The translations under genes were made by a program, and so were the position numbers. This document shows, one piece after another, positions 11,944 through 24,349 of a stretch of DNA of 24,349 bases (its first letter is position 1; each line of letters begins with the position of its first letter). The DNA is from a virus. The DNA lies in the IMG/VR virus record IMGVR_UViG_3300008258_000063, positions 1 through 24,349 of that record; one strand, given 5' to 3'. The notes beneath the pieces are model-generated. The model searched no databases. It was not told the DNA's origin and saw only the letters and a list, made by a program, of their open reading frames with translations.

Positions 11944-12101
11944 AAATAGAACTGCTATGCTTAACTGAGAATGAGGATGGGTCTGCTGATGTAGATCTTG
12001 AATTAGACGAAGAAGCTAAGATTCTTCTCATTCAGGTTGGTTTAGAAACCCTGCTCACCAGAGCAATTGATAAATACAAGGAAGAATCAAATGAGTCTTG
12101 A
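11940..12101 (+). CDS. Small acidic protein (53 aa)
   Basis: The ATG at 11940 overlaps the reductase TGA (ATGA, 11940-11943), and the frame ends with TGA at 12099-12101. The 53-residue acidic product contains LDEEAKILLIQVGLETLLTR, a segment typical of a short helical phage protein. It probably folds as a beta strand plus two helices. I have seen similar small proteins in other T7-like phages but know no role. Translation is likely coupled to the reductase. Confidence 0.6.
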   Translation: MKIELLCLTENEDGSADVDLELDEEAKILLIQVGLETLLTRAIDKYKEESNES

Positions 12102-12219
12102 ACTATATTTTCTCACTGGATTTATGGTAGGTTTTGAATATGTCGCTGATTATGATGATTGTCGACATCTAATTGTAGACTTAGGAATATTCAGACTACT
12201 GTTTTCTTTTGAGTTGTAA
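12091..12219 (+). CDS. Hypothetical small protein (42 aa)
   Basis: The ATG at 12091 lies inside the end of the previous gene (11-base overlap) in another frame. A run to TAA at 12217-12219 encodes 42 mostly hydrophobic and aromatic residues, beginning MSLELYFLTGFMVGFEY. A possible ribosome-binding sequence (AAGGAAGAAT) precedes it. The frame ends 6 bases before the terminator stem, which fits a last gene of the operon. No family recognised. It could also be non-coding. Confidence 0.45.
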   Translation: MSLELYFLTGFMVGFEYVADYDDCRHLIVDLGIFRLLFSFEL

Positions 12220-12225
12220 CTTAAG

Positions 12226-12247
12226 AGCCCCTTCGGGGGCTTTTTTT
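12226..12247 (+). terminator. Intrinsic terminator ending the rightward arm
   Basis: A perfect 6-base stem AGCCCC (12226-12231) pairs with GGGGCT (12236-12241) around a stable TTCG tetraloop and is followed by a run of T to 12247. It ends transcription of the replication arm. The stem would also form in leftward transcripts, but that side lacks a T-run, so it looks one-directional. The T-tract contains the stop codon (12246-12248) of the converging endolysin gene. Confidence 0.93.
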
Positions 12248-12680
12248 ATTGGAACGGACGAGTACCAGCTTTATCAATAATCAAGGCTTGTCTTCGGGGT
12301 TTATCAGCAATACCGTTAGGAACGCTTAGATGAGTCCAGGAGCTGAATTCTTCTATGATTTGATCATAGGGTATGTCCGAAGCAATGCAAGCCTCTACAA
12401 CCTGTTTAGGGGTCATTCCTGGGACTCTCAAATCAGCAGCACAACCTAGCCTATGCTGGCTAGTGTCCTTGCTACCGACAGAGTCGTTGACTGGTTTAGA
12501 TCTAAAGCCTGAGTTAATCATAATAGGCTTACCTAGGAGACTTCTAACCTGCTCAAGCAATGCTGCTAAGCGAGTTAAGTTAGCAACCTCACTGGCATTA
12601 GGGGTATTATCTAAGTTCTTACGCTCTGCTACTTCAGAGTGAGTTAGTTCTTCTAAGGTAAAGTTATTACTTAGATTCAT
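12246..12680 (-). CDS. Endolysin: M15 family peptidase (D-Ala-D-Ala carboxypeptidase-like)
   Basis: This 144-residue protein matches the peptidase M15 fold: INSGFRSKPVNDSVG (55-69), SQHRLGCAADLRV with zinc ligands His76 and Asp83, and IIEEFSSWTHLSV with catalytic Glu110 or Glu111 and zinc ligand His117. Such enzymes cut peptide bonds in the peptidoglycan stem. There is no signal peptide, so release would depend on the holin encoded just upstream. It is the last gene of the leftward arm, with its stop inside the T-tract of the opposing terminator. Its start overlaps the holin end by 14 bases. Confidence 0.9.
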   Translation of the reverse strand: MNLSNNFTLEELTHSEVAERKNLDNTPNASEVANLTRLAALLEQVRSLLGKPIMINSGFRSKPVNDSVGSKDTSQHRLGCAADLRVPGMTPKQVVEACIASDIPYDQIIEEFSSWTHLSVPNGIADKPRRQALIIDKAGTRPFQ

Positions 12681-13077
12681 CTTTTTTCTTTTTCATTTCC
12701 ATAATCTTCTCCAGCGAGCGACCACCGAAATAGAAGGACATAATCAACATACCCCATTGACCTAGGAGTTCAACATAGTTGTTGTTTACTTCTATATCCC
12801 ATGCCGACATCGTAGCAAAGGCAGAGTAGACTAAGAGAATAAACACTAGGGTCATGGGTCTTATATTCTTAGACAGCCAGCTATCACTAGCCATGTCTGC
12901 TTCTTGACGCTTTGTGAGTTCTTGTGCCTCAATATTATCAGCGTTTAACTCAGCAAGCTTTCCTTCTTGTTGCATCTGTAGTAGTTCTTTCTGAGCCTTT
13001 GCCTTAGCTTCTGGATCAGGAATGAATTTATCTAGGACTTTCATCCCAACATCGAATAGTGCCATCAATGGTAACAT
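12667..13077 (-). CDS. Holin of the 3-TM / gene-transfer-release type
   Basis: This 136-residue protein has an N-terminal hydrophobic stretch, a charged helical middle including KFIPDPEAKAKAQKELLQMQ, and two clear membrane segments, at about 74-93 (TLVFILLVYSAFATMSAWDI) and 103-118 (LLGQWGMLIMSFYFGG). It ends with a very basic/charged tail. The segments DSWLSKNIRPMT and YFGGRSLEKI are the signature of the holin family first described for gene-transfer-agent release (HOL3TM type). It would form the membrane lesion that lets the endolysin reach the wall. It abuts the coiled-coil gene (shared base 13077) and overlaps the endolysin. Confidence 0.85.
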   Translation of the reverse strand: MLPLMALFDVGMKVLDKFIPDPEAKAKAQKELLQMQQEGKLAELNADNIEAQELTKRQEADMASDSWLSKNIRPMTLVFILLVYSAFATMSAWDIEVNNNYVELLGQWGMLIMSFYFGGRSLEKIMEMKKKKDESK

Positions 13078-13526
13078 TATTTATACCCCCAGGTTAGATA
13101 CCAAGCAATGACCGCAGCCACTGCATAGCACATGAACATTGCTCTACGAACCTTTGCCAAATCTTCTTTAAACTCTCTAGTAAGTTCATTGTCTTGTTTC
13201 TCTATTTTTTGTTTAACGGATTCGATTTCACCCCAGCGTTTAGTTCCATGCTTTCTTATGAAATCAGCTTTTACTTTTGCTTCCTCAATGCGAATGTCTT
13301 CTTGACGTTGCCATTCCATTAATGCTCTCTTGAAGTACTGCTCTTTAAAGACCTGTGTTTCTCGTATTTGTCTCTTACGCTCTAAGTCTTTCTGCTGTGC
13401 TACTGCTGCAGCGTCCTTCTGTACATCGGTAATACTTTTAGTAATAGACTTACTAGCCTCTCGACTAGCATCCATACTACTTGTTACAGACTTTGCTCCT
13501 TCTATAAAACCAAATTGATCTGACAT
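13077..13526 (-). CDS. Coiled-coil protein with C-terminal membrane anchor
   Basis: This 149-residue protein is almost wholly charged helix (residues 35-125, many Lys/Glu/Arg/Gln, coiled-coil-like) and ends with one membrane span at about 129-145 (AMFMCYAVAAVIAWYLTW). It lies between the large internal virion protein and the holin. Its role may be in the lysis cassette (for example an anchor or spanin-like bridge, although the anchor end is opposite to usual inner-membrane spanins) or in the virion core. I do not recognise a named family. No strong ribosome-binding site is visible. Confidence 0.6.
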   Translation of the reverse strand: MSDQFGFIEGAKSVTSSMDASREASKSITKSITDVQKDAAAVAQQKDLERKRQIRETQVFKEQYFKRALMEWQRQEDIRIEEAKVKADFIRKHGTKRWGEIESVKQKIEKQDNELTREFKEDLAKVRRAMFMCYAVAAVIAWYLTWGYK

Positions 13527-13529
13527 ATC

Positions 13530-16500
13530 TCATTCTTCTAGTTCTAATCCTTTTTTAGCAAGCTTTGCTCTAATAAACTGATCTCTAAATTCAGGATCTC
13601 TCATCTTCTCCATGAGCATAATATTCGTAGCAGTTTTTCTACCATTTCTAAAAGCCCGTTCTAGCATTACTTTTTGCATAGATGCAGGAGCGTTTTGATA
13701 ACCAACAGTTTGTATTAATCCTGACGCAGTTGCTTCTATAAACTGACTAGATATGGCTTGGTACTTTCCAATATCTTCTCCAGATAACTCTACACCACGT
13801 AGCGTTTTACCTGGTAAGTTATAATCTACTTTAGTTCTAGCAATCTCTTCTTGAAGTTGGTTACGTGCAGCAGGAGTTGTTTGTAATCCAGTGTATGCAG
13901 CAAATCCATAAGCAAGGTTTGGACGTTCTCCTCCTACTAACATAGATTGAGCTGGTAATTCTTGGCGAGATGGTATAGGAAGACCTAATCCGAAGTCAGG
14001 TACACGAGCTTGTACTGCTTCACCAAATCCAGTTACAACACGAGCATACGGATCTCTACCACGTGCAGGAGCTGCTATAATAGAAGGGACTAATAAACCA
14101 GCAAATCCGTTTACAAAACTACCACCATATCTCTCTGGATCGTGCAGTGCTTGAAGAAGACCAGAAACACCTTCTAAGTATGTTTTAGATATGATGTTCT
14201 TAGTCACACCTGCTACAACATCAATAACTAAATCTTTTTCTTTCTTAGAATCATACTTAGGTTTAGACACATAATCACGTACTGCGTTAATACCATCTAC
14301 TGAAGAACCCATAATAGTTGCTAAAGGTTCTACACGAGCATAAGCATACCAAGTATCCCCAATCTTAACACTATACTCAGGGATACCAGCAGCAATCATA
14401 GCGTTACGCTTAGCAGCATCCTTAGGATATGAACCAGTGATGTTACCTTCAGCTACCTGTTGAGCTAGTGCAGCAGTTATACCAAGTCCAACAGCAGTAC
14501 GAGCTATCTTAACATCCGTAGGAGTGTTCTTAGAGAATACACCTAAGGGAGTATAAGATAAAGCATCCTTCATAATATTGATAGGAGTCTTAACGAAGGG
14601 AATTACTGGAGCTACCCAGGGGTGAGCTGCTCTAAGAGCTAAGAGTTTATTACCAAAGCTACCTAAGTCTGCTTGGAATGTAGCTTGCTTAGCAAAGTTA
14701 CGTACATCATCAACAAGTTTGACACGTACATTATCAGGTAGTGTAGCTAACTCAGGAGCTTTAAGAACATTATCTTTCCAGTCTAAAGTCTTGGTGTTTA
14801 CTTTACGTAACGCACTATACACAGCTTCAGGATCGCCATACTTACCAGAAGAAGCTAAGCGATAGGCTTGAGCATTGTATTCCATACGACGGAAAATAGA
14901 CTTGAAGAACTCGTCAACACCTACGCTAAGGCGACTAGGAACACGAACCACTTGACCTAGAATCTTCTCAACTTTAGTAGCACCTTCTTGAGCACCGATA
15001 GCCCCACGAATCTCAGGCATTGCTGCGTCTAACGGAGATCCTCTTAGTAAACCTTCTTTAGTAAAGTATGCGGATTCTAATAAACCATCCATCAATCCTC
15101 TAAATGCAGGAAGAACTTCTCCAATCTTAACTTTACTTGCAGGGTTGACTGCTTGTAAAATACGCTCAGTACCTAATAGTCCTATCTTAGCAATACCAGA
15201 GAATGCGTTAACTGCAGTGGTAGCTAGACCAGAGATGTAAGAGTTAACTACAAACTCACCAAACTTATCTGCCCAGCCTGGCTGCTTTACTGCATCTTTA
15301 GTTAAGTTAGCCAGTGCTTCGTTCTTATTAAAGCTAGTACCAGGAGAAGCTTTTATAGCAGATACAGCATCTCTTAATGCAAAGATGTCTGACAGTTCTT
15401 TACCACCATTCTTAGATAATCCTTTTAAGATCTCCTCAGTAGAACCAATTACTTTCTTCTGAGCTTTAGCTGCTGCTAAGGCACGACCAATATTAGATAC
15501 GTTACCAATAGCGGAGATTAGATCACGACCACCTAGTTCTTGTACCTTACGATTAAGTAAGAAGTTTACTGCGGAGTCAGCAGGAATATTGAGAGGTGTT
15601 GTATCTAACTCAGTAGCAATAGCTCCTTTGTTAGCTGATACGATACGAGTAAGTAACTGCTCTGGGTCTTCTGCTTTGTAGCCAGCTTTAAGATACGCTG
15701 CTAAGTTCTGTTCACGTAATGGATTATCTGCACTGAATGCAGCAGTAAACCTTGAAGCAGGTATGTCAGTTAGTCTGAACGGAGCATCTGTAAAGAGAGC
15801 ACGATAGTCTCCACCAGCAATCTCATTGGTCAGCTTAGTAGCTAACTCAGAGTCTTCTAACTGCTGGAGTAAAGGAACAATACTGTCTTGTAGTTCAATG
15901 TTCTTAGCAGCACCTACATCAGCAATCTCTTGAGCTAACGGACTTAATGGTACGTTGTCTTGAGTAACACCAGTAGTTAGCCCAGTCTTAGTATTTTGTA
16001 ATTCTTTACCTGCTTGCTGTACTGCTTCACGACCTGTACGATTAACAAGTGCTCCTATTGTACCGCCAAGTGTTCCTCCTAAGACAATACCTGCAGCAGA
16101 CGAAGCTACTCTTCCTAAGTCTTCATCAGAATAAATTGGTTGTAGTGCTCCAGCAACACCTCCTCCAGCAGCACCTCCAGCAACTAATCCTTTAGCTCCT
16201 TTGAATAACAATGATCCTGGAATAAGTGTAGAAGGATTAACCAAACCTCCTACGAATGTGCCTAATACACCAGACACAGGATTCTCTGCAGTCATTTGAC
16301 GAACACGAGATTCTTCTTCTACTTGTTCAGCAGTTGGTTCTTTGCCTAATAACTGAGCAGCTCCTGTGATTTCAGAGCCTACTGCTTGACGAGCTGCTGC
16401 TGTGAAGGTTTCAAACGCAGTAGCACCTGTACGGTTTAAGTACTCAACAATATCTTTATCTGATAAGCCAGCCTTACGAGCACCTTCTAAATCATATTCA

Positions 16501-16580
16501 GTGCCTTGTGCTAAGTAAGATGCAATATCAGTATAAGATAAGCCAGCTTTTCTAGCTCCTAAAACATCATATGTAGCCAT
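13530..16580 (-). CDS. Large internal virion protein (T7 gp16 position)
   Basis: The 1016-residue protein, the longest in the window, sits after two other core-type genes in the order of T7 gp14-gp15-gp16. It starts with two copies of a 20-residue motif (period 25 residues). A long Gly/Ala-rich hydrophobic stretch follows at about 105-185 and may enter membranes, as expected for a DNA-ejection channel protein. The middle and end are helical, with segments such as AAHPWVAPVIPFVKTPINIM that I recognise from large proteins of aquatic phages. I cannot see a lytic transglycosylase domain like that at the N terminus of T7 gp16. The ejection-core call therefore rests on size, order and neighbours. 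Confidence 0.65.
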   Translation of the reverse strand: MATYDVLGARKAGLSYTDIASYLAQGTEYDLEGARKAGLSDKDIVEYLNRTGATAFETFTAAARQAVGSEITGAAQLLGKEPTAEQVEEESRVRQMTAENPVSGVLGTFVGGLVNPSTLIPGSLLFKGAKGLVAGGAAGGGVAGALQPIYSDEDLGRVASSAAGIVLGGTLGGTIGALVNRTGREAVQQAGKELQNTKTGLTTGVTQDNVPLSPLAQEIADVGAAKNIELQDSIVPLLQQLEDSELATKLTNEIAGGDYRALFTDAPFRLTDIPASRFTAAFSADNPLREQNLAAYLKAGYKAEDPEQLLTRIVSANKGAIATELDTTPLNIPADSAVNFLLNRKVQELGGRDLISAIGNVSNIGRALAAAKAQKKVIGSTEEILKGLSKNGGKELSDIFALRDAVSAIKASPGTSFNKNEALANLTKDAVKQPGWADKFGEFVVNSYISGLATTAVNAFSGIAKIGLLGTERILQAVNPASKVKIGEVLPAFRGLMDGLLESAYFTKEGLLRGSPLDAAMPEIRGAIGAQEGATKVEKILGQVVRVPSRLSVGVDEFFKSIFRRMEYNAQAYRLASSGKYGDPEAVYSALRKVNTKTLDWKDNVLKAPELATLPDNVRVKLVDDVRNFAKQATFQADLGSFGNKLLALRAAHPWVAPVIPFVKTPINIMKDALSYTPLGVFSKNTPTDVKIARTAVGLGITAALAQQVAEGNITGSYPKDAAKRNAMIAAGIPEYSVKIGDTWYAYARVEPLATIMGSSVDGINAVRDYVSKPKYDSKKEKDLVIDVVAGVTKNIISKTYLEGVSGLLQALHDPERYGGSFVNGFAGLLVPSIIAAPARGRDPYARVVTGFGEAVQARVPDFGLGLPIPSRQELPAQSMLVGGERPNLAYGFAAYTGLQTTPAARNQLQEEIARTKVDYNLPGKTLRGVELSGEDIGKYQAISSQFIEATASGLIQTVGYQNAPASMQKVMLERAFRNGRKTATNIMLMEKMRDPEFRDQFIRAKLAKKGLELEE
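16437..16571 (-). repeat. Two-copy 25-residue repeat in the large internal virion protein
   Basis: Residues 4-23 and 29-48 carry the same pattern, YD(V/L)xGARKAGLSxxDIxxYL, with a 25-residue (75-base) period. The copies differ in their linkers, and the DNA copies are diverged, so this looks like an old duplication of a short helical module. Confidence 0.8.
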
Positions 16581-16587
16581 GTTACCC

Positions 16588-17706
16588 TTACTGAATAACT
16601 ACTCTAGTGCCAAAATTAGCTTGTATTTTTGCTTGGAGTGCGTTGATTCTTTGCTGTATTTCTGCTCGATATGCAGGTTCAGTTTCTAATCTCTGTAGAT
16701 TTGCTCTAGCGTCTGCTTGTATTTGTTGGTACTCAGGATCTAAAGCAATTTTATATGTACCTGCTGCTTGATCATATGGACTAGCTACTGTAGGAGCTGC
16801 TGCGGAAGCTGCTGGTGCAGGTGCTGCAGATGATGCTGGAGCTGTAGTAGTAGGTGGATTACGTTTGTCAAATGAAGCAGGACTTGGTTTTTCTCCTGCA
16901 GGAGTAGTTCCTGGTTTACCTTTATTTAAAACGCTATCTACAATTGCACTAGTTACTACAATTCTATCTACTTCTTTACGAGTTTTCTTATCGTAATAAA
17001 CAATAACACCACCACCGTTTTGATCAGGAATTGCTGTTTTATCTAGTTTACCTTCTTCGTATTCAGCATTGTATTTACGAATCTTAGCACGTTCTGCCTC
17101 AGTTTGAACAGATAAAAGTTCCATACTAAGCTCATCTTTACGACGCTTTTTATCAATATCAAGTTGAATCTGACCACGTTGTTCAGCAAGTCTATTAGCC
17201 AATGCATCATTACCAGCATCACGAGCTTTAGCAATCTGCTCATCAAGCAGTTGAGGATTCTTAGTATATAGCTCAGTCTCAAGAACTTGAGTTCTAAGTT
17301 TCTCTCCTCTAGCTTTTTCTGCTTCAGCTTCTACTCTACGTAGTTCCTGAGTAGCCATCAGAGCTTGCTGACCTAAACCAGCTTCAGCGAATCCTGTTTG
17401 TAGATTTCTATAGAAAGACAATGGATCGTTAGGATCAGAGTTCTGCATAGCAGTATTGTAAACATTCTGTACACTGGTTAACTTCTGTAATACAGGATTA
17501 GTAACTTCAAAGAAGCCACGATCTTGTGCTACGTTAACTAAGCCTCTACCCAGCAGTGAACCAAGCTGTGCTCCTAGTTGATTCTGTGCAGGTAAAGCAC
17601 CTATACGAGCTTGTTCTTGTTGAATTAATTGTTGACGATACAACTCAGGATCTGCACCAAGCAGTGCTTGTTGATTACCTAAAAGTGGATTTACTGGCTG
17701 TCCCAT
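16588..17706 (-). CDS. Internal virion protein C-like (T7 gp15 position)
   Basis: This 372-residue protein is mostly charged helix: a Gln/Leu/Glu-rich first half (residues 1-205, with RRVEAEAEKARGEKLRTQ) is coiled-coil-like. A small beta segment follows (GGGVIVYYDKKTRKEVDRIV), then a Pro/Ala/Thr/Ser linker at about 270-310 and a helical C terminus. It is bounded by a gp14-like and a gp16-like gene, which suits a core or ejection protein. It is much shorter than T7 gp15, so function is inferred only from order and composition. AAGGAAT precedes its ATG. Confidence 0.5.
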   Translation of the reverse strand: MGQPVNPLLGNQQALLGADPELYRQQLIQQEQARIGALPAQNQLGAQLGSLLGRGLVNVAQDRGFFEVTNPVLQKLTSVQNVYNTAMQNSDPNDPLSFYRNLQTGFAEAGLGQQALMATQELRRVEAEAEKARGEKLRTQVLETELYTKNPQLLDEQIAKARDAGNDALANRLAEQRGQIQLDIDKKRRKDELSMELLSVQTEAERAKIRKYNAEYEEGKLDKTAIPDQNGGGVIVYYDKKTRKEVDRIVVTSAIVDSVLNKGKPGTTPAGEKPSPASFDKRNPPTTTAPASSAAPAPAASAAAPTVASPYDQAAGTYKIALDPEYQQIQADARANLQRLETEPAYRAEIQQRINALQAKIQANFGTRVVIQ

Positions 17707-17715
17707 AATTATTCC

Positions 17716-18702
17716 TTAGAATTGAAAATCTCTAGAAGACGGTTGATATTGTTGCGTTGGTTTAGGAGCACCATAAGCACCCGCAGCAGACCCAATTAAA
17801 CTAGATAAGAACTGATTGTTCAGTGACTGAGCTGCTACGTTAGCACCATACTGGGTCTGAGCACCTTGCAGCATACCTCCTAAGTAGCCCTGAGCACCTG
17901 CAGTTTGACCTGGCATCTGAGCTGTGCCTAATGCAAGACCTACTTGATAAGGTTGCATAGCCATGTTCTCTACTTGACTGGACAATCCTAACTGAGTTTG
18001 TAAAGGAGAGTAAGCACCCGCATAGCCTTGTACTTGTGTGCCTAGTAATCCAGCACCAGTGCCTACTAAACTAGCACCAAACTGTGTTCTTTGACGAGCA
18101 GCTTGATCAGCTTCAGCAGCTAATTGTAGATCTTGCTGAGCTAGTGCATTGTAGTATGCTTGCATTTCAGGATTCGCAGGAGCACGACCTGTACCAGTTT
18201 GAACTCCTAAGCCACCACGACCAGTAGCAAAAGCACGACTACGAAGACCAGCAAGCGATTGTTCACGTAAAGGCTGTAATAAACCTTGTCGTGATGCAAT
18301 ATAATCCTGAGCAGCTTGCTCTGGAGACGTAGCTAAATAGTCTTGACCTAGTTTAAACAAGCCCTGAGAAACACCAGTCAGTGGAGCGTACTGACTTTGT
18401 ACTTGTTCTGCTTGTGCTAACGTAGGAGCAAACCTACCAAAGAGTTGATTCTGCAAGGCAGATAACTCAGGAGCTGGTGTGTATCCTCCTGAGGAGATAT
18501 AAGGAACACCAGTGGCAGGGTCTATCTCACGAGTAAACTGAGACGTACCAAACCTGGTAGTCATCCCTACAGGACGGAACGCAGAGATATTAGCAGCATC
18601 TATGCCAGCTTGTCGCTGTTGTGCTGCAGCTTGCTCTCCTGCTTTTCGTACCCCACTAGCCCCTGTAAAGGGGTCTAATACTGCACTAACTATACCGCCC
18701 AT
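17716..18702 (-). CDS. Internal virion protein B-like (T7 gp14 position)
   Basis: The 328-residue protein is rich in Ala, Gln and Gly. It begins with MGGIVSAVLDPFTGASG, a hydrophobic amphipathic start common to phage ejection proteins, and has a central Gln/Ala helical region plus repeated LG/YG-rich segments (SLVGTGAGLLGTQVQGYAG, ALGTAQMPGQTAGAQGYLGG). Such alternate Gly/Ala runs are typical of virion proteins that can pass membranes. It comes first in the gp14-15-16-like trio. A good AGGAGC ribosome-binding site precedes the start. It overlaps the preceding gene by 13 bases. Confidence 0.6.
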   Translation of the reverse strand: MGGIVSAVLDPFTGASGVRKAGEQAAAQQRQAGIDAANISAFRPVGMTTRFGTSQFTREIDPATGVPYISSGGYTPAPELSALQNQLFGRFAPTLAQAEQVQSQYAPLTGVSQGLFKLGQDYLATSPEQAAQDYIASRQGLLQPLREQSLAGLRSRAFATGRGGLGVQTGTGRAPANPEMQAYYNALAQQDLQLAAEADQAARQRTQFGASLVGTGAGLLGTQVQGYAGAYSPLQTQLGLSSQVENMAMQPYQVGLALGTAQMPGQTAGAQGYLGGMLQGAQTQYGANVAAQSLNNQFLSSLIGSAAGAYGAPKPTQQYQPSSRDFQF

Positions 18703-18986
18703 GTTTTGCTCCTAATAAATATAGTGTATTTCTTGTAGTTAACTTCTATAGGTTTTAATACTTCCCATCCTGTTACTGAACCAAACTTAGCAAGTTTAGT
18801 ATTCTCTTCTTCTACTAATGCTAACAGAGGAACATTAGTTAGATATTGTAATAAGTTTAAATCTTCTAAGTACTTCTTCTTTACTTCCTGCGACCACTTA
18901 TGTACATCTGTATGAAACCACAATGCTGCATCGTGTAATTCTAAGTACATTGTGTAGTCGTCTCTAAGGACTACAGGTACTTTCAT
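18690..18986 (-). CDS. Hypothetical protein (98 aa), possible GNAT-fold, gp13 position
   Basis: The 98-residue protein contains LWFHTDVHKWSQEVKKKYLE, then VPLLALVEEENTKLAKFGSV and a closing beta stretch NYKKYTIFIRSKTW. The order of a helix with HKW, a strand with A-L and an N-x-K-L-x-K-F-G segment recalls the small GNAT-like proteins found next to T7-like tail genes, including T7 gp13, and the location between tail and core genes is the same. That link is tentative, and no acetyl-CoA loop is evident. The gene starts 1 base after the fibre stop and overlaps the next by 13 bases. Confidence 0.55.
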   Translation of the reverse strand: MKVPVVLRDDYTMYLELHDAALWFHTDVHKWSQEVKKKYLEDLNLLQYLTNVPLLALVEEENTKLAKFGSVTGWEVLKPIEVNYKKYTIFIRSKTWAV

Positions 18987-18987
18987 C

Positions 18988-19710
18988 TTAGGTCTTCATA
19001 ATAAACGCTAATGCATAGTATGGAGGCAAGTTCTGATTCGTACCGCTAGAGCCTTCTGTACTAATTGATACAGATGAAGAACTCGTTAAACCAATTGTTG
19101 CTGCCGTAGCAGTTCCTGATAAAACATATGCAGAAACACCAGCTAGTGATTGGTTAGTTCCTGCAATTTGTTCAGAAGAACCAACTTGAGAAGTAGTATT
19201 TACTGTAGCATTAGCTGCTATAAAATGGCTGTGTCCAGCATCTGTATGTGTATGGCTCACAACCCCAGCATCTTTAGTACCGCCAGTCTGCGTATTAGAA
19301 CCAGTGATAGTAGAATATGCAACACCAGCAGAATCACTATGAGCACCAATAATAAATCTGTTACGAAGATCAGGAGTGCTATTAGAACCATTACACAATA
19401 CCCATCCTGTAGGAATAGTAGCAATTGTTCCAGACCACATCATAATCATACCTGATGTAAACGCTGCTGATAAAGCAGTCTGTACAAAAGCAGTAGTAGC
19501 TACTTGTGTTGTGTTCGTAGCAGCAGATGCTGTAGGTGCTGTAGGAGTTCCTGTTAAAGCAGGACTATTTAAGTCTGCTTTGGATGAAATAGCAGAAGCT
19601 ACCGCAGTTAACTCAGTATCAATTTCTGTACCTTTAACAATCTTGCCTGAGTTACCAGTAGGTAATCCATCTTTAGCTGTAAAGTTAGTTGCTTTTGTAT
19701 AGTTTGCCAT
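18988..19710 (-). CDS. Tail fibre with phage tail collar domain
   Basis: The 240-residue protein has an N-terminal Thr/Asp part, a fibre-type repeat (SPALTGTPTAPTAS, TTQVATTAFVQ, residues 49-78), a tail collar domain at about 88-122 (GWVLCNGS, TPDLRNRFIIG), and a His-rich metal-binding segment SHTHTDAGHSHF (His153, 155, 160, 162) like that coordinated in T4 gp12. It ends with NLPPYYALAFIMKT, the classic end of this family. Short trimeric fibres of this type bind cell-surface glycans. It sits between tail tubular B and the 98-residue gene. Confidence 0.9.
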   Translation of the reverse strand: MANYTKATNFTAKDGLPTGNSGKIVKGTEIDTELTAVASAISSKADLNSPALTGTPTAPTASAATNTTQVATTAFVQTALSAAFTSGMIMMWSGTIATIPTGWVLCNGSNSTPDLRNRFIIGAHSDSAGVAYSTITGSNTQTGGTKDAGVVSHTHTDAGHSHFIAANATVNTTSQVGSSEQIAGTNQSLAGVSAYVLSGTATAATIGLTSSSSVSISTEGSSGTNQNLPPYYALAFIMKT

Positions 19711-19719
19711 ATTATGTCC

Positions 19720-21372
19720 TTAGACTAAAGTCTTTCCTTGCTTGATTGCTACGTCTATTTTCTGAATTGAAACTGGGTTTCCATTAATATCTGCTTCTAA
19801 GCCTAGCTGCATTACAGTTCCTTGACCACCAGCATTAATGTTAAAGCGATCTAAAACAATACCTGAGGTATACTCAGCAATATTATATTCGGTTGAGCCA
19901 GGGATAGTGTCTACAGTAGAATTATTATATTCATATATTGTAGCAGCGTCTAAAGCATATGTAGTAGCTTGATAACTCTCACTATAATCAAAGCCCCACT
20001 TAATAGCCACTGATTGGTTAGTGCCTCCAATCAATACCCAACCAATCTTTTTTAGTAACTTAAGATTTGTAGACGCATCAAAATCAAAGTAATTAGTAAA
20101 GTAAGCAAGACGATAACTAGAAGTATTATCAGTATAGCCGTAGTATTTACCGATATATCCTGGCTTACCTAAGTATAAGTCTCTAGCTTGTGTTACAAAG
20201 AATGACTTAGGTTCAATACTATCCCAGACTGTAGCTCTCATAGAACCATCTTGCAGTGCAGCACGAGTGTCAAAACAATATACAAACTTAGTTGTAGGAA
20301 GTGTTAATAAATATATAGCGTCTCTTTCATAGTAGACACTTTTAATCTTAGTTAAGTCTGTTTCTGAAAACACAGCAGACATTAGCTCATCACGAACATT
20401 CTTAGAGATGTCCCGCATTGGCATAGACTTTTCTTGGACTACTCGCTGTAGACTACGAACTCCTGAATCAGATAAGAACAATACATCTGTTGCAATATTC
20501 TGTACTGAATCTCTAGCAATACATCCTACATTATAGATAACTTCAACAAGTGTTAACGCTCCTGTGTCTAAAGGATTAGCATAGATTGCTATGTTCTTAC
20601 GACCAAAGAATATAATATATCCGTTATGTGCTGCTGCAGCAATTACAGGATCACCGTTAGGTAATACTTCTTGTAGGTTTAAATAACCAGCAGAACCATT
20701 TAAGAAATCTGTGCCAGCTAGTAAATCGCTGAAATAGACAGTTTGAGTGTCTCCTGAGATACCACCACACCATATTCTTCCATAAGCAGAAAGCACCCAG
20801 CTAGGCATGAATGTTGCTGTGCTATGATTAGAAGGTAACTTAGCGTCATCTCCTACACGCTGGTAGCCAAATGTACCGCTATCGTGCGAACTAAAAGGAT
20901 TACCAGAAATAGGTAACTCATGATACACCAGCATAGGATGTGCTGCTTGTGCTAAATATACATGAGCTTGAAAGTCTGTAACATCTCCATAAGACATGGC
21001 AGCACCTTGCCAGTTATTACCTGTAATGGTATAAGTAGCGTTACCGCTGTTAGTAGTGTTACGCACTGTCTTAGTAGTCATCGTAGTAGTTCCTACAAAT
21101 AACTGATTATTACCAGCACTTAACACTTGATTACTACCGCCATCAACTAATTCAAATATAAACTCTACTGCGTTACCTGATCCTAAGTCAGTATTAACTG
21201 CAGAGTTTACTGTAGTCCACCCACGACGAGCACCGATACGACCATACTTATCAATTACACAATTCTGAGCTTTTAATGCATAACCAGAAGCCAAAGTAAT
21301 ACTAGACTCTTGTAGATTGAGTCCATAGAATCCAGGAGCTGCTATAGACGATGTCTGTAGTTGACTAGCCAT
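19720..21372 (-). CDS. Tail tubular protein B / nozzle-like
   Basis: The 550-residue, beta-rich protein begins SSIAAPGFYGLNLQESS and continues with NCVIDKYGRIGARRGW, a pattern I know from tail-nozzle proteins of T7-like and pelagiphage-type viruses. The rest is alternating beta strands with many aromatic and Gly residues, as in a propeller-like tube domain. It directly follows tail tubular A (1 base apart), as gp11-gp12 in T7. It is shorter than T7 gp12 (794). In the virion it would form the tip of the tail tube through which DNA exits. Confidence 0.75.
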   Translation of the reverse strand: MASQLQTSSIAAPGFYGLNLQESSITLASGYALKAQNCVIDKYGRIGARRGWTTVNSAVNTDLGSGNAVEFIFELVDGGSNQVLSAGNNQLFVGTTTMTTKTVRNTTNSGNATYTITGNNWQGAAMSYGDVTDFQAHVYLAQAAHPMLVYHELPISGNPFSSHDSGTFGYQRVGDDAKLPSNHSTATFMPSWVLSAYGRIWCGGISGDTQTVYFSDLLAGTDFLNGSAGYLNLQEVLPNGDPVIAAAAHNGYIIFFGRKNIAIYANPLDTGALTLVEVIYNVGCIARDSVQNIATDVLFLSDSGVRSLQRVVQEKSMPMRDISKNVRDELMSAVFSETDLTKIKSVYYERDAIYLLTLPTTKFVYCFDTRAALQDGSMRATVWDSIEPKSFFVTQARDLYLGKPGYIGKYYGYTDNTSSYRLAYFTNYFDFDASTNLKLLKKIGWVLIGGTNQSVAIKWGFDYSESYQATTYALDAATIYEYNNSTVDTIPGSTEYNIAEYTSGIVLDRFNINAGGQGTVMQLGLEADINGNPVSIQKIDVAIKQGKTLV

Positions 21373-22020
21373 TTAGATTGCTTCCCAGGCTTGTTCTTCT
21401 ATATATCGTCCTGATTCAAGTGCTATAGCGTCTGCTAAGCTCTGCTTCATTAACTGATATGTCTCCCCAGCTTGTACTCCTCCGTCCTCACCACGCTCTG
21501 CCTGAGCCCTTGCAAGAGCTCCTAAGATTACTGGCTCTTCAGGTACTAATAAATTATCAGCGTTAACTGCTAAGGGTACTTGTGGTTTAATAATATTAAA
21601 ACGAAGGTTATAAGCACCATCAGGAATAGGGTATAAGTCTACCTGAGTATTTCCACTGGAATTAACACCATTGAAGTTATAATATGCAGGAGACCCCTTC
21701 TGAGGAGTGGTCATTAAGAACTGCTGATCCATCCACCTAGTAGAAGCTAATTCTACAAAAGTATTTTGAGTATCATTAATAACATCGATAACTCTAAATC
21801 TTTGACCTGAGCCCACTAGAACATAGTTAAATACATCTGCAGTAGTGGTAGCACTAAGAGTTTCAGACAAAGCATTCCAGTTGTAGGAGTCTTCTACGAC
21901 CCTTTTAGAATCATTGACAAACTTAGCAATCAATTTTACATAGGCATTATCAGATACCGAGGAAGCCTCAGGTTCACGCAGCCTAATCAGTACGTCATTT
22001 ACTAGTTGAATGTAGTTCAT
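21373..22020 (-). CDS. Tail tubular protein A (T7 gp11-like)
   Basis: This 215-residue protein starts MNYIQLVNDVLIRLREPEAS, the familiar N terminus of T7-type tail tubular protein A, and ends in a long helix (ERGEDGGVQAGETYQLMKQS, then IALESGRYIEEQAWEAI). It bridges the portal and the nozzle in this family. The length is close to T7 gp11 (196). The start ATG at 22020 has no ribosome-binding site upstream, and it falls where transcription should begin from the promoter at 22028-22056, so the message is probably leaderless. Confidence 0.88.
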   Translation of the reverse strand: MNYIQLVNDVLIRLREPEASSVSDNAYVKLIAKFVNDSKRVVEDSYNWNALSETLSATTTADVFNYVLVGSGQRFRVIDVINDTQNTFVELASTRWMDQQFLMTTPQKGSPAYYNFNGVNSSGNTQVDLYPIPDGAYNLRFNIIKPQVPLAVNADNLLVPEEPVILGALARAQAERGEDGGVQAGETYQLMKQSLADAIALESGRYIEEQAWEAI

Positions 22021-22027
22021 ATCTTAT

Positions 22028-22056
22028 ATTATACCATAAAATTGATTAAAAGTCAA
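22028..22056 (-). promoter_or_regulatory. Sigma-70-type promoter P4 for the tail genes
   Basis: Read on the minus strand, TTGACT (22056-22051, 5 of 6) is followed after exactly 17 bases by a perfect TATAAT (22033-22028), with a TG one base upstream of it (TGGTATAAT), an extended -10. The initiation point would fall at about 22021-22020, on the A of the tail tubular A ATG. This is the best promoter in the leftward arm. Confidence 0.75.
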
Positions 22057-22064
22057 TACCTTAA

Positions 22065-22310
22065 TTAACAGTCCCACTTCTTTAATGCTAAGGCTTTGCG
22101 GGTAGGTCTGCCCTTTTCATCTTTCATAGCCCCTTTTACTCCACTCATACGAGCACAGAAGCTCTTACGTCTTCCAGCAGCTTTAGGGGATTTTGCAGCC
22201 TCTTTAGCAGAAACTGGAGGCTTCAGGTTAGAGCCTGTCTTCTTGTTGAAGTAAGCCCTTCCTTTAGCGTTTAAACCACCTTCAGGATTCTGATATACCT
22301 TCTTAACCAT
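22065..22310 (-). CDS. Small basic protein, DUF6321-like
   Basis: The 81-residue, Lys/Arg-rich protein carries GGLNAKGRAYFNKKTGSNLK, RRKSFCARMSGVKGAMKD and GRPTRKALALKKW, the pattern of a small basic family (DUF6321 type) that I associate with marine and freshwater phages. No function is known to me. It ends DC and has Cys in FCARM. Its start shares one base with the end of the upstream basic gene. It lies between the virion genes and promoter P4, suggesting a virion or DNA-condensing role, which is inference. Confidence 0.75.
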   Translation of the reverse strand: MVKKVYQNPEGGLNAKGRAYFNKKTGSNLKPPVSAKEAAKSPKAAGRRKSFCARMSGVKGAMKDEKGRPTRKALALKKWDC

Positions 22311-22540
22311 TACCGATACCCCGCTGTCTTCTTTGCTATGTTCTTTGGTTGTTTTACAAACTGTTTACCTGCTTTATTTCCTTTAGCTTTAGCTTTATTC
22401 GTAGCAGCTTTCTCTGCAGGACTTAGTGCCTTCCAAGCAGCATCAGGTAGATAGCGTTTCTTGCCCTTACTAGGCGAACCATCTGAAGTTCTCCACTTCT
22501 GTGCTGACCAGTCTTTTAGAGACTGTTGAGGATTCTTCAT
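22310..22540 (-). CDS. Small basic protein, DUF5872-like
   Basis: The 76-residue protein has MKNPQQSLKDWSAQKWRTSD, KKRYLPDAAWKALSPAEKAA, and a Lys-rich end with TNKAKAKGNKAGKQFVKQP. This arrangement (W-x-x-QKWRT, RYLP, TxKAKxKG, GKQFVxQP) matches small phage proteins annotated as DUF5872 in my memory; a search would confirm it. Strongly basic throughout. Its ATG overlaps the stop of the upstream basic gene (ATGA, 22540-22537). Confidence 0.75.
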   Translation of the reverse strand: MKNPQQSLKDWSAQKWRTSDGSPSKGKKRYLPDAAWKALSPAEKAATNKAKAKGNKAGKQFVKQPKNIAKKTAGYR

Positions 22541-22722
22541 GATTTATAACCACCGCCCTTGCTCTTGTACTGACGAGCTAGAAGCTGTGCCTTTCTTGCT
22601 GACCATTCGCCAGGGTCTCCACCTTTACTACCTGCCTTAATCTTGTTAAACAAGGTCTTACGCATAGTAGGTTTGGTGTAGACTCCTGCTTGGTTTACTT
22701 TAGACTTAGGCTTAGTAGCCAC
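22537..22722 (-). CDS. Small basic conserved protein (61 aa, GTG start)
   Basis: The frame runs up to GTG 22731, but the GTG at 22722 is preferred because it gives the product MATKPKSKVNQAGVYTKPTM, the N terminus I know from related phages. The rest includes RKTLFNKIKAGSKGGDPGEW and SARKAQLLARQYKSKGGGY. The protein is Lys/Arg/Gly-rich and probably binds nucleic acid or packs with it, but function is unknown. It overlaps the upstream 47-residue gene by 11 bases and the downstream one by 4. Confidence 0.7.
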   Translation of the reverse strand: MATKPKSKVNQAGVYTKPTMRKTLFNKIKAGSKGGDPGEWSARKAQLLARQYKSKGGGYKS

Positions 22723-22855
22723 GCATTGCACCCATCTTCTTAGCTGGCTTAGCTTTAGGAGTAGTCATCTTCATGCCTGTTTTCTGAGCATATGACTTAG
22801 CTTGCTTCTTACCCTTAGTTGTATAGGGGAACTTCTTGTCTTTGACCATTGGCAT
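22712..22855 (-). CDS. Tiny very basic protein (47 aa)
   Basis: An ATG at 22855-22853 with AAAGGAAATAAT in front opens a 47-residue frame ending at TAA 22714-22712. The product starts MPMVKDKKFPYTTKGKKQAK and ends KPAKKMGAMRGY, almost a third Lys. It starts the run of four small basic genes and overlaps the second by 11 bases. No family is assigned. The ribosome-binding site and packing support a real gene. Confidence 0.65.
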   Translation of the reverse strand: MPMVKDKKFPYTTKGKKQAKSYAQKTGMKMTTPKAKPAKKMGAMRGY

Positions 22856-22877
22856 ATTATTTCCTTTTGTTTAGTTG

Positions 22878-23231
22878 TTATACAAAGTTTTGTACGGTAC
22901 TGCGTTGCTCTAATTCTAGTGTTACAATACAGCTTGCATTCGTTGCACCAGTTTCAATTAATACACGAATCTCATCATGCTCATCTAAGACTACATGGGC
23001 TTGTCCGTCAATGCGTAAGAAGTTCTTACCTGTTAAAGAATAATCATATACTACAGCAATCTCTACATTCTCAGAAGCGTCATACCAGAATGCTCTGAAG
23101 TTCTTAGCAGAAGCTGTGCCGTTGTAAGCATACAATAAAGTCCACTTAGCAATGTTCCTAGTTGGAACAGTAAACATTGTTGTCAATGTATTAGCAGTAA
23201 GATTCTTGCCTACGGAATGTGGTCTACTCAT
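22878..23231 (-). CDS. Conserved beta-rich virion-type protein (117 aa)
   Basis: The 117-residue protein begins MSRPHSVGKNLTANTLTTMF and is beta-strand rich (TVPTRNIAKWTLLYAYN, NVEIAVVYDYSL, IRVLIETGATNASCIVTLE). This pattern is common in small virion proteins of aquatic phages located near tail genes, often of unknown exact location (head decoration or tail-tip base). Its start overlaps the XhlA-like stop as ATGA (23231-23228). A 22-base gap with a good ribosome-binding site follows it. Confidence 0.65.
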   Translation of the reverse strand: MSRPHSVGKNLTANTLTTMFTVPTRNIAKWTLLYAYNGTASAKNFRAFWYDASENVEIAVVYDYSLTGKNFLRIDGQAHVVLDEHDEIRVLIETGATNASCIVTLELEQRSTVQNFV

Positions 23232-23380
23232 TTAAGTACCAAAGTTAATAAAGTTATGATAATAAATCCAGCAGTGCCTATGAGAATCTGTTCTAGTCTC
23301 TTTAGTCTAGCGTGTATCTGTTCGTATCGAACCTTACAGACTTCTTCGTGGCTTAGGAGTTTTAATTCAGCTTCGGTCAT
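23228..23380 (-). CDS. Small XhlA/hemolysin-like membrane protein (50 aa)
   Basis: The ATG at 23380 overlaps the adhesin stop as ATGA, so it is chosen over an in-frame ATG at 23416 that would lie inside the adhesin gene. The 50-residue product has a charged helix with VCKVRYEQIHARLKRLEQIL followed by one membrane span (IGTAGFIIITLLTLVLK). The IHxRLxRLE-then-membrane layout is that of the XhlA/hemolysin family, small anchored proteins that help lysis in Bacillus prophages. It is far from the holin-endolysin pair. Confidence 0.7.
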   Translation of the reverse strand: MTEAELKLLSHEEVCKVRYEQIHARLKRLEQILIGTAGFIIITLLTLVLK

Positions 23381-24349
23381 GTAACACCAACCCACGATAC
23401 TAGATTTTCGTTCCATACATAGCTTTTACCATCAGTGGGATACGGATATGGAGGATTCCATAAACAAGTCTCATCATTTAATAACCAGCTTGGGTGTGGT
23501 TTTGGAGGAACAAACGCATCTCTTACTGCATCATAGGTATAACCTATGCCAGCATAGTTTTTACGAAAAGGAACACCGCCTAACATATGAATACCTCCAT
23601 GAGTATTATAAGAAGTCTGTTTATAAACTTCGCCTGTTCTAGCGGATAGTTCTATCTCTTTGCCATTATCTTCATCACGACCTACTGTAACAAAGATTAC
23701 AGTAAATCCACCGGCAGAACTAGATGTTTGAGTAACTCCACCTGAAAATGTAGCACTATAAGAATCTGGAATTTTAATTACAACAATACCAGAACCGCCA
23801 TTTGCACCGCTTGCCCAAGTACCGTTATAAGAACCTGCACCGCCACCGCCACCTTTATTTGTCTCCCCAACAGTTCCTGCTGCACCGCTACTACCTCCAG
23901 CACCACCTCCATCTGACGCAGTTCCACCAGTAGCAATAAAACCAACTCCACCAGCAGCACCCCCACCGCCAGCACGACCTACACTTGATCCTGTAATTGA
24001 AGAAGAAACTCCAGTACCGCCACCACCATTGACAGTCGTAGTTCCAGTTCCACCAACCCCACCAGCTCCACCGCCACCACCGGGACCGTAACTTGGAGAG
24101 CCTGTATTTTGACCACCAGCAAATCCTTGATTAGCAGTTCCAGCAGCAGCAGTAAATGTTGGCGCACCGCCAAAAGTTCCTGCGCCGCCTCCTGATCCAC
24201 CTGAATTACCAGCAGCACCACCCCCACCATAACCGCCACCAGTTGAAGTAATGGTTGATAAAACAGAATTGCTACCATTAGTTCCACTTCCAGTTGCACC
24301 TGAACCACCGCCACCAACAGTTACTGTATAAGTTGTTCCTATATTTAAA
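23377..24349 (-). CDS. Gly-rich tail adhesin with C-terminal aromatic domain (5' end outside window)
   Basis: The minus-strand frame is open from the window edge to the TGA at 23379-23377 (323 residues seen), with no stop in between; it has no ATG in its first two thirds, so a start-based scan reads it as two hydrophobic Val/Leu ORFs in another frame. The visible part begins with a beta motif GTTYTVTVGGGG. Gly-rich runs follow (YGGGGAAGNSGGSGGGAG, then GPGGGGGAGGVGGTG). A motif GSGIVVIKIPDSYSATFSGG, common to phage Gly-rich tail fibres, ends that part. A Trp/Tyr/Pro-rich C-terminal domain follows (FRKNYAGIGYTYDAVRDAFV, WNPPYPYP, YVWNENLVSWV), like one I know as separate proteins of cyanophages. 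The likely role is adhesion to the host. Confidence 0.85.
   Translation of the reverse strand, partial: LNIGTTYTVTVGGGGSGATGSGTNGSNSVLSTITSTGGGYGGGGAAGNSGGSGGGAGTFGGAPTFTAAAGTANQGFAGGQNTGSPSYGPGGGGGAGGVGGTGTTTVNGGGGTGVSSSITGSSVGRAGGGGAAGGVGFIATGGTASDGGGAGGSSGAAGTVGETNKGGGGGAGSYNGTWASGANGGSGIVVIKIPDSYSATFSGGVTQTSSSAGGFTVIFVTVGRDEDNGKEIELSARTGEVYKQTSYNTHGGIHMLGGVPFRKNYAGIGYTYDAVRDAFVPPKPHPSWLLNDETCLWNPPYPYPTDGKSYVWNENLVSWVGVT

Follow-up and report, generated by a model that had tools for sequence, protein, structure and literature searches.

Four small basic phage proteins as apparent modules of a mosaic late-gene set, two of them with a fused counterpart in SAR11 genomes

The 24,349-base window analysed here, an IMG/VR virus record classed as linear and often a fragment, carries four overlapping genes transcribed on the minus strand in the order P4, P3, P2, P1 (Table 1). 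P3 and P4 overlap by 11 bases, P2 and P3 by 4 bases (ATGA) and P1 and P2 by 1 base (TAATG), and AAAAGGAAATAAT lies 5' of P4 as a plausible ribosome-binding site read from the sequence. An earlier, sequence-only reading had described a cluster of four tiny overlapping genes for basic proteins, and the sizes (47, 61, 76 and 81 aa), minus-strand positions and overlaps were all confirmed. Its description of the products as basic was also borne out: computed net charges were +17 for P1, +16 for P2, +13 for P3 (64-aa form) and +13 for P4, with pI values of 10.5–10.6, whereas the five adjacent proteins computed were acidic or near neutral.

Table 1 Features of the window and of the other loci discussed
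Feature	Coordinates	Strand	Description
62-aa protein	23228..23416	-	C-terminal hydrophobic stretch; possibly a small membrane protein, from its sequence; precedes the 117-aa virion-type gene
117-aa virion-type protein	22878..23231	-	directly upstream of P4
P4	22712..22855	-	47 aa; MPMV-K-Y/F-YT family, weakly like phrog_33179
P3	22537..22722	-	61 aa from ATG (64 aa from GTG at 22731); phrog_17747; partner of P2
P2	22310..22540	-	76 aa; phrog_14910 family; partner of P3
P1	22065..22310	-	81 aa; DUF6321 (PF19846); predicted compact helical domain
Putative sigma-70-like promoter	22028..22056	-	TTGACT-17-TATAAT, TG before the -10; between P1 and adaptor
Head–tail adaptor (SU10 type)	21373..22020	-	directly downstream of P1; PF24175, E = 3.4e-13
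550-aa protein	19720..21372	-	after adaptor; phrog_5107, E = 2.1e-30; phrog_578, E = 3.5e-13
GLYANIHAKRKR-type copies	L002:5958-6089; L004:4852-5001; L006:5567-5719; L089:4204-4380		likeness by eye; only L002 scanned
Q7 (phrog_7595)	L038:446-727		small basic family
Monooxygenase gene of HMO-2011	L001:6389-7471		between the P3 and P2 genes
P3-P2 fusion, Nostocales cyanobacterium HT-58-2	L210:4857-5228		on complete chromosome
P2-P3 fusion, SAR11	L245:4986-5402		138 aa from the first ATG

The 117-aa protein gave profile matches to S-SCSM1_27 (i-E = 4.8e-18), which has the GenBank product name 'virion protein' and lies two genes from the DUF6321 protein of S-SCSM1, and to HMO-2011 gene 64 (i-E = 2.8e-30), which adjoins the P3 gene in that phage. 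The match to S-SCSM1_27 supports the earlier placing of the cluster next to a virion-type gene, but the downstream neighbour, previously taken as a tail tube gene, is better read as a head–tail adaptor from its match to PF24175. This adaptor is acidic (computed net charge −11, pI 4.4), and the 550-aa protein after it carries conflicting PHROG labels (amidase versus head closure). The putative promoter agrees with the consensus at 11 of 12 positions, the best of 25 sites in 12,000–24,349; it is a consensus match only, and chance alone would give 25.3 sites at the threshold of the scan. The family of the 62-aa protein upstream was present in 32 of the 80 loci of the P1 scan described below (the best 80 of at least 579).

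Median dN/dS was 0.089 for each of P1, P2 and P3, 0.194 for P4, 0.181 for the 117-aa gene and 0.085 for the adaptor, calculated from pairs that all include the window sequence and so are not independent (usable pairs: P1, 41 of 108; P2, 8 of 81; P3, 6 of 80; P4, 28 of 37; 117-aa gene, 16 of 73; adaptor, 9 of 90; pairs with a synonymous distance outside 0.05–1.5 or a length below 80% were dropped). P1–P3 are under purifying selection as strong as that on the adjacent tail-adaptor gene. Because the families recur on one strand elsewhere and median dN/dS is low, the cluster is more than chance, and P1–P4 are real, conserved proteins.

Profile searches assign three of the four to families without known function. 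P1 is a full member of DUF6321, with no difference from it (PF19846, E = 1.4e-28, 99.7 bits against a gathering cut-off of 28.5, profile positions 2–72 of 72; 98.8 bits by genome search), P2 belongs to phrog_14910 (E = 5.9e-37, positions 3–79 of 80) and P3 to phrog_17747 (E = 1.6e-37, positions 4–63 of 63), while P4 matched phrog_33179 only weakly (E = 0.022 over positions 1–38 of 42). NCBIfam returned no match for any of the four, and a literature search by family name found no paper dealing with DUF6321. AlphaFold modelled P1 as a compact helical domain (pLDDT 86.7, pTM 0.66, 22 sequences), and a naturally occurring P3-P2 fusion (L107) was predicted at pLDDT 80.2 and pTM 0.49. None of the 32 PDB chains aligned to the P1 model reached a Z of 2, and the best of 19 aligned to the fusion had a Z of 2.6, which is no useful match; profile searches of the PDB drew a blank with P1 and P3, P2 had no hit better than E = 0.73, and sequence searches gave nothing usable. 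In BFVD, P1 matched further DUF6321 domains, among them those of a protein named Ferritin/DPS and of an AAA-domain protein. Neither P1 nor P3-P2 gave a nucleic-acid-binding fold in these comparisons, which counts against a nucleic-acid role.

In tblastn searches of phage records at E = 1e-3, P1 was found in 117, P2 in 19 and P3 in 17, with P1 rising to 471 records at E = 0.1 and P4 giving no match in the collection at E = 0.01. Both P2 and P3 were held by 16 records, so the earlier claim that these families of unknown function are seen together in aquatic phages was upheld. The hosts are Pelagibacter, Roseobacter-group bacteria, SAR116, Methylophilales and cyanobacteria. The DNA polymerase of the window is closest to those of the Pelagibacter phages HTVC104P, HTVC103P and HTVC115P (47–51% identity), all of which also carry P2 and P3.

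Two scans of IMG/VR, one with P2 (at least 595 confirmed stretches) and one with P1 (at least 579), were each analysed for their best 80 loci. The P2-scan loci held P3 in 79 of 80 cases, always adjacent to P2, along with P1 in 35, P4 in 27 and the adaptor in 13; the sole locus without P3 begins just 42 bases before the P2 frame. The full order P4-P3-P2-P1 on one strand, for which the earlier reading had suggested looking in other phages, occurred in 8 of these 80 (L015, L025, L030, L049, L052, L065, L066 and L070). The P1-scan loci had a different core: P1 in all 80, the adaptor in 79, the 550-aa gene in 72, the 117-aa gene in 65 and P4 in 50, and P2 and P3 in only 3 each. From this difference, P4 and P1 appear to belong to the adaptor neighbourhood, with P3-P2 an optional pair inserted between them. 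Across 169 viral loci, in which some contigs are included twice (for example, L015 and L139), P1 and the adaptor lay within 2.5 kb of each other in 83 among the matches listed, every one of these 83 pairs sharing a strand, and strand agreement at this distance was also complete for P2 and P3 (89 of 89) and for P1 and P4 (63 of 63). An apparent enrichment of small basic ORFs near the anchors (625 of 1,544 within 1.5 kb against 71 of 1,182 beyond) was not used as evidence, as the counts include the anchor genes themselves.

The genes recur in similar late regions of other phages. In HTVC168P the order is scaffold, two small genes, DUF6321 and capsid; in P-SCSP1a it is capsid, DUF6321, gene 15 and tail tubular protein A; and in MEP402 the cluster directly precedes terL. 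The DUF6321 protein lies between terS and terL in ACG-2014f, S-SZBM1, S-CREM2 and S-SCSM1. Among isolates, HTVC168P has P1, CRP-13 has P2 and P3, and MEP402 has P1–P4 types, in each case as individual genes. Raw counts, taken without a background control from loci cut at about 5 kb, placed a TerL-like ORF in 16 of the 80 IMG/VR P2 loci (best 80 of at least 595; 15 within 3 kb, 10 within 1 kb and 15 on the same strand) and, among the matches listed, in 11 of 66 genome-contig loci, never more than 3 kb away and always on the same strand. Not every phage shows a late position: Microcystis phage LMM01 carries its DUF6321 gene among helicase and clamp-loader (replication) genes rather than virion genes, which counts against a virion reading. 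Cargo can separate P3 from P2, as in HMO-2011, where the two genes flank one annotated as methanesulfonate monooxygenase alpha subunit.

P2 and P3 also occur as single chains. S-CRES1 gp97 consists of P3 followed by P2, and S-EIV1 AHV82147 of P3 followed by the start of P2; a scan of IMG/VR with the S-CRES1 protein gave 11 loci, 9 of which (L099–L107) have both domains in one ORF. Together with the fusion of opposite order described below, domain matches indicate that P2 and P3 move together, with natural fusions in either order. Further small basic families keep the same company. Four phages encode a GLYANIHAKRKR-type basic protein of 43–58 aa only a few genes away from DUF6321, and proteins of this type are fused to DUF6321 in PHROG families: phrog_11180 has a match to phrog_16028 ('GLYANIH', small basic) at 14–54 and DUF6321 at 66–141, and phrog_28131 has the phrog_16028 match at 4–44 and DUF6321 at 300–372. 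Another small basic family, Q7, is present in the same clusters (L038 and 38 other loci); 38 copies are no more than 2.5 kb from P1 or P2, without exception on the same strand. Q7 is also embedded at 535–604 of the portal of phage CL131 (i-E = 2.8e-12), a protein identified by LC-MS/MS according to its authors (PMC6293099). Homology between P1 and Q7, suspected from a common R-x-SF-x-x-R pattern, is not claimed (hhalign probability 21%). Judged by their order, combinations and fusions, the P1–P4 families look like a mosaic late-gene kit of interchangeable modules common to many unrelated aquatic phages.

The bearing of this kit on the virion comes from T4-like cyanophages, in which DUF6321 forms the C-terminus of long proteins encoded near the terminase genes (ACG-2014f, 849 aa; S-SCSM1_29, 517 aa; Syn9 gp114, 443 aa, two genes after terS with terL outside the stretch examined). 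The S-CREM2 member, ORF137, is a 490-aa protein encoded between terS and terL with DUF6321 at 415–488 (Pfam, 3.5e-10; our own profile, 1.6e-13). Table 3 of PMC10665884 places ORF137 among 52 proteins detected after CsCl purification of virions, with 4 unique peptides that cover 4.1% of the chain. One DUF6321 fusion protein was thus detected in virions; given the low coverage, the peptides not being placed along the chain and the net acidity of ORF137 (−20), the DUF6321 domain itself may or may not lie inside the head. S-SCSM1_29 bears the record product name 'virion protein'; the S-SCSM1 record has 48 CDS so labelled (16 + 15 + 0 + 5 + 12) against 45 proteins detected according to PMC9602691, so the label follows the proteome closely but not exactly, and S-SCSM1_29 is likely, though not certain, to be among the detected virion proteins. 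By contrast, the DUF6321 protein of S-SZBM1, gp084 (S-SZBM1_192 by position and neighbour lengths), and the 707-aa gp082 (S-SZBM1_194) are absent from the 30 detected virion proteins in Table 1 of PMC9146016. For S-CREM1, 14 virion proteins were detected. The accessible virion-proteome literature yielded no virion record for P2, P3 or P4, and the accessible part of the P-SCSP1u cryo-EM paper no mention of gp14, gp15 or mass spectrometry. Fully cleaved tryptic peptides of 7–30 residues number only 2 for P1, 4 for P2, 2 for P3 and 0 for P4, so tryptic digestion is a poor test for these small versions. For the DUF6321 family, the proposal of virion packaging draws support from S-CREM2 and from the S-SCSM1_29 label, and meets a counter-example in S-SZBM1. 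Inspected by eye, the gp114-like chains had no consistent T4-type prohead-protease site ahead of their modules, and that idea was dropped.

P2 and P3 are not confined to phages. A scan of genome contigs with the P2 alignment confirmed at least 66 loci (589 stretches examined), and among the matches listed P3 was also present in 62 of 66. At least 22 of the loci are from Pelagibacteraceae, on contigs of up to 521 kb, and carry an ORF of 140–156 aa (stop to stop) with the domains in the order P2-P3. An SDR gene was nearby, among the matches listed, in 22 of 22 such loci with the L245 query and 20 of 22 with the L225 query, and the flanks also held TspO (16), DUF3833 (15), a CMAS-type methyltransferase (13) and DUF1365 (11), in counts that are affected by the incomplete ends of some of the 22 loci. 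Of 99 sampled genomes of the family (completeness not given), 12 carried a P2-P3 match, one of them (G047) in two separate pieces. A short, midpoint-rooted tree of the P2 domain (22 rows) placed the five SAR11 rows in one clade (99/97), nested in a branch with HTVC033P, HTVC034P and two phage copies from SAR11 contigs, which fits a transfer of P2-P3 from phage to host. As some SAR11 genomes carry P2-P3 beside ordinary metabolic genes, the pair is not only a virion part, and nothing else speaks as strongly as this cellular gene against a role in the virion alone. Nostocales cyanobacterium HT-58-2 has a P3-P2 fusion on its complete chromosome, about 100 bases after a 533-aa terminase-like ORF (used as a TerL seed; no Pfam match), and judging from that neighbour this locus is probably a prophage. 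At a further locus (L256), P3 and P2 follow a Pfam-confirmed terminase in a prophage-like or viral setting.

Our preferred reading, which we hold tentatively and at a little short of even likelihood, is that P1–P4 are separately encoded units drawn from a mosaic repertoire of strongly basic late phage proteins with nucleic acid as their partner, with DUF6321 at least sometimes in the virion and P2-P3 acting as one unit. The association would take place while the genome is being packaged or afterwards; P1, as a DUF6321 protein, and probably P4 would be part of the head–tail section of the virion programme, with a few copies carried inside the particle or on its surface; and P3 and P2 would work together as a two-part unit. 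We infer that the ligand may be DNA, that the proteins may lie inside the head and condense or protect the genome, and that they may be ejected with it. The sequence-only reading had suggested virion-packaged DNA-condensing proteins or factors ejected with the genome; co-occurrence of the families and the detection of DUF6321 in the virions of one phage support part of this, and the SAR11 P2-P3 gene is left unexplained by a purely virion role.

Late proteins that act inside the cell and outside the virion, coating or compacting replicated DNA or helping to hand it to the terminase, are a possible but rather unlikely explanation. The frequent nearness to terminase genes, the fused P2-P3 gene of SAR11 and the absence of the DUF6321 protein from the detected S-SZBM1 virion proteins all speak for such a role, against which stand the detection of a DUF6321 protein in S-CREM2 virions and the fact that in relatives of the window P1 tracks the adaptor (79 of 80 P1 loci, the best 80 of at least 579) and not the terminase. 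It is very unlikely that the proteins instead serve assembly, as cationic peptides that stabilize acidic neck proteins of the portal and adaptor rather than DNA: the acidic adaptor does directly follow P1 and Q7 is embedded in a portal, but most P2 loci have P2-P3 with no recognized adaptor nearby (adaptor in 13 of 80, the best 80 of at least 595), and the pair occurs in SAR11 cells.

Small basic proteins often bind RNA, and this, with the lack of a recognized DNA-binding fold for P1 or P3-P2, would suit host take-over factors that act on RNA, ribosomes or transcription and are made late or ejected; the late-region location beside structural genes and the detection of one DUF6321 family member in virions make this highly doubtful. 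Basic coats that would guard DNA against light or oxidative damage, whether it is packaged or entering the cell, with the SAR11 gene doing likewise for the cell, seem hardly probable, although TspO, DUF3833, CMAS and DUF1365 flank many copies of the SAR11 gene in a set that resembles the light and singlet-oxygen stress clusters of alphaproteobacteria, and one DUF6321 domain belongs to the protein named Ferritin/DPS. The neighbours of the L240 and L245 genes differ, and a match is found in only 12 of the 99 sampled genomes, whose completeness is not given. A more extensive version, in which an exchangeable protamine-like kit, made as tiny genes or as fused virion proteins, coats and protects the packaged genome and SAR11 has domesticated P2-P3 as a genome-protecting protein within a light-stress cluster, is likewise distinctly unlikely.

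Of known systems, the gp114-type proteins of T4-like cyanophages (phrog_727, phrog_3477 and relatives) share DUF6321 and the late region near the terminase with the window set, but they are single long chains (443–849 aa for the three translated), whereas the window modules are separate small genes. The SAR11 fusion holds both window domains in one chain and differs in its reversed domain order and in being flanked by SDR and other metabolic genes. T7 gp6.7 and gp7.3 and the internal head proteins of T4 are small, several of them basic, encoded near head or tail genes and carried in the virion, and P1–P4 are like them, compared by description only, in size, gene setting and charge.

Small size and low tryptic coverage hide the P1–P4 families, yet their homologues are numerous, with at least 595 (P2) and at least 579 (P1) confirmed stretches in IMG/VR. 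If the modules do coat DNA, this way of filling heads would be widespread among marine and freshwater phages yet missed by standard proteomics. The counterpart in SAR11, which are abundant marine bacteria, would allow the function to be tested outside a phage.
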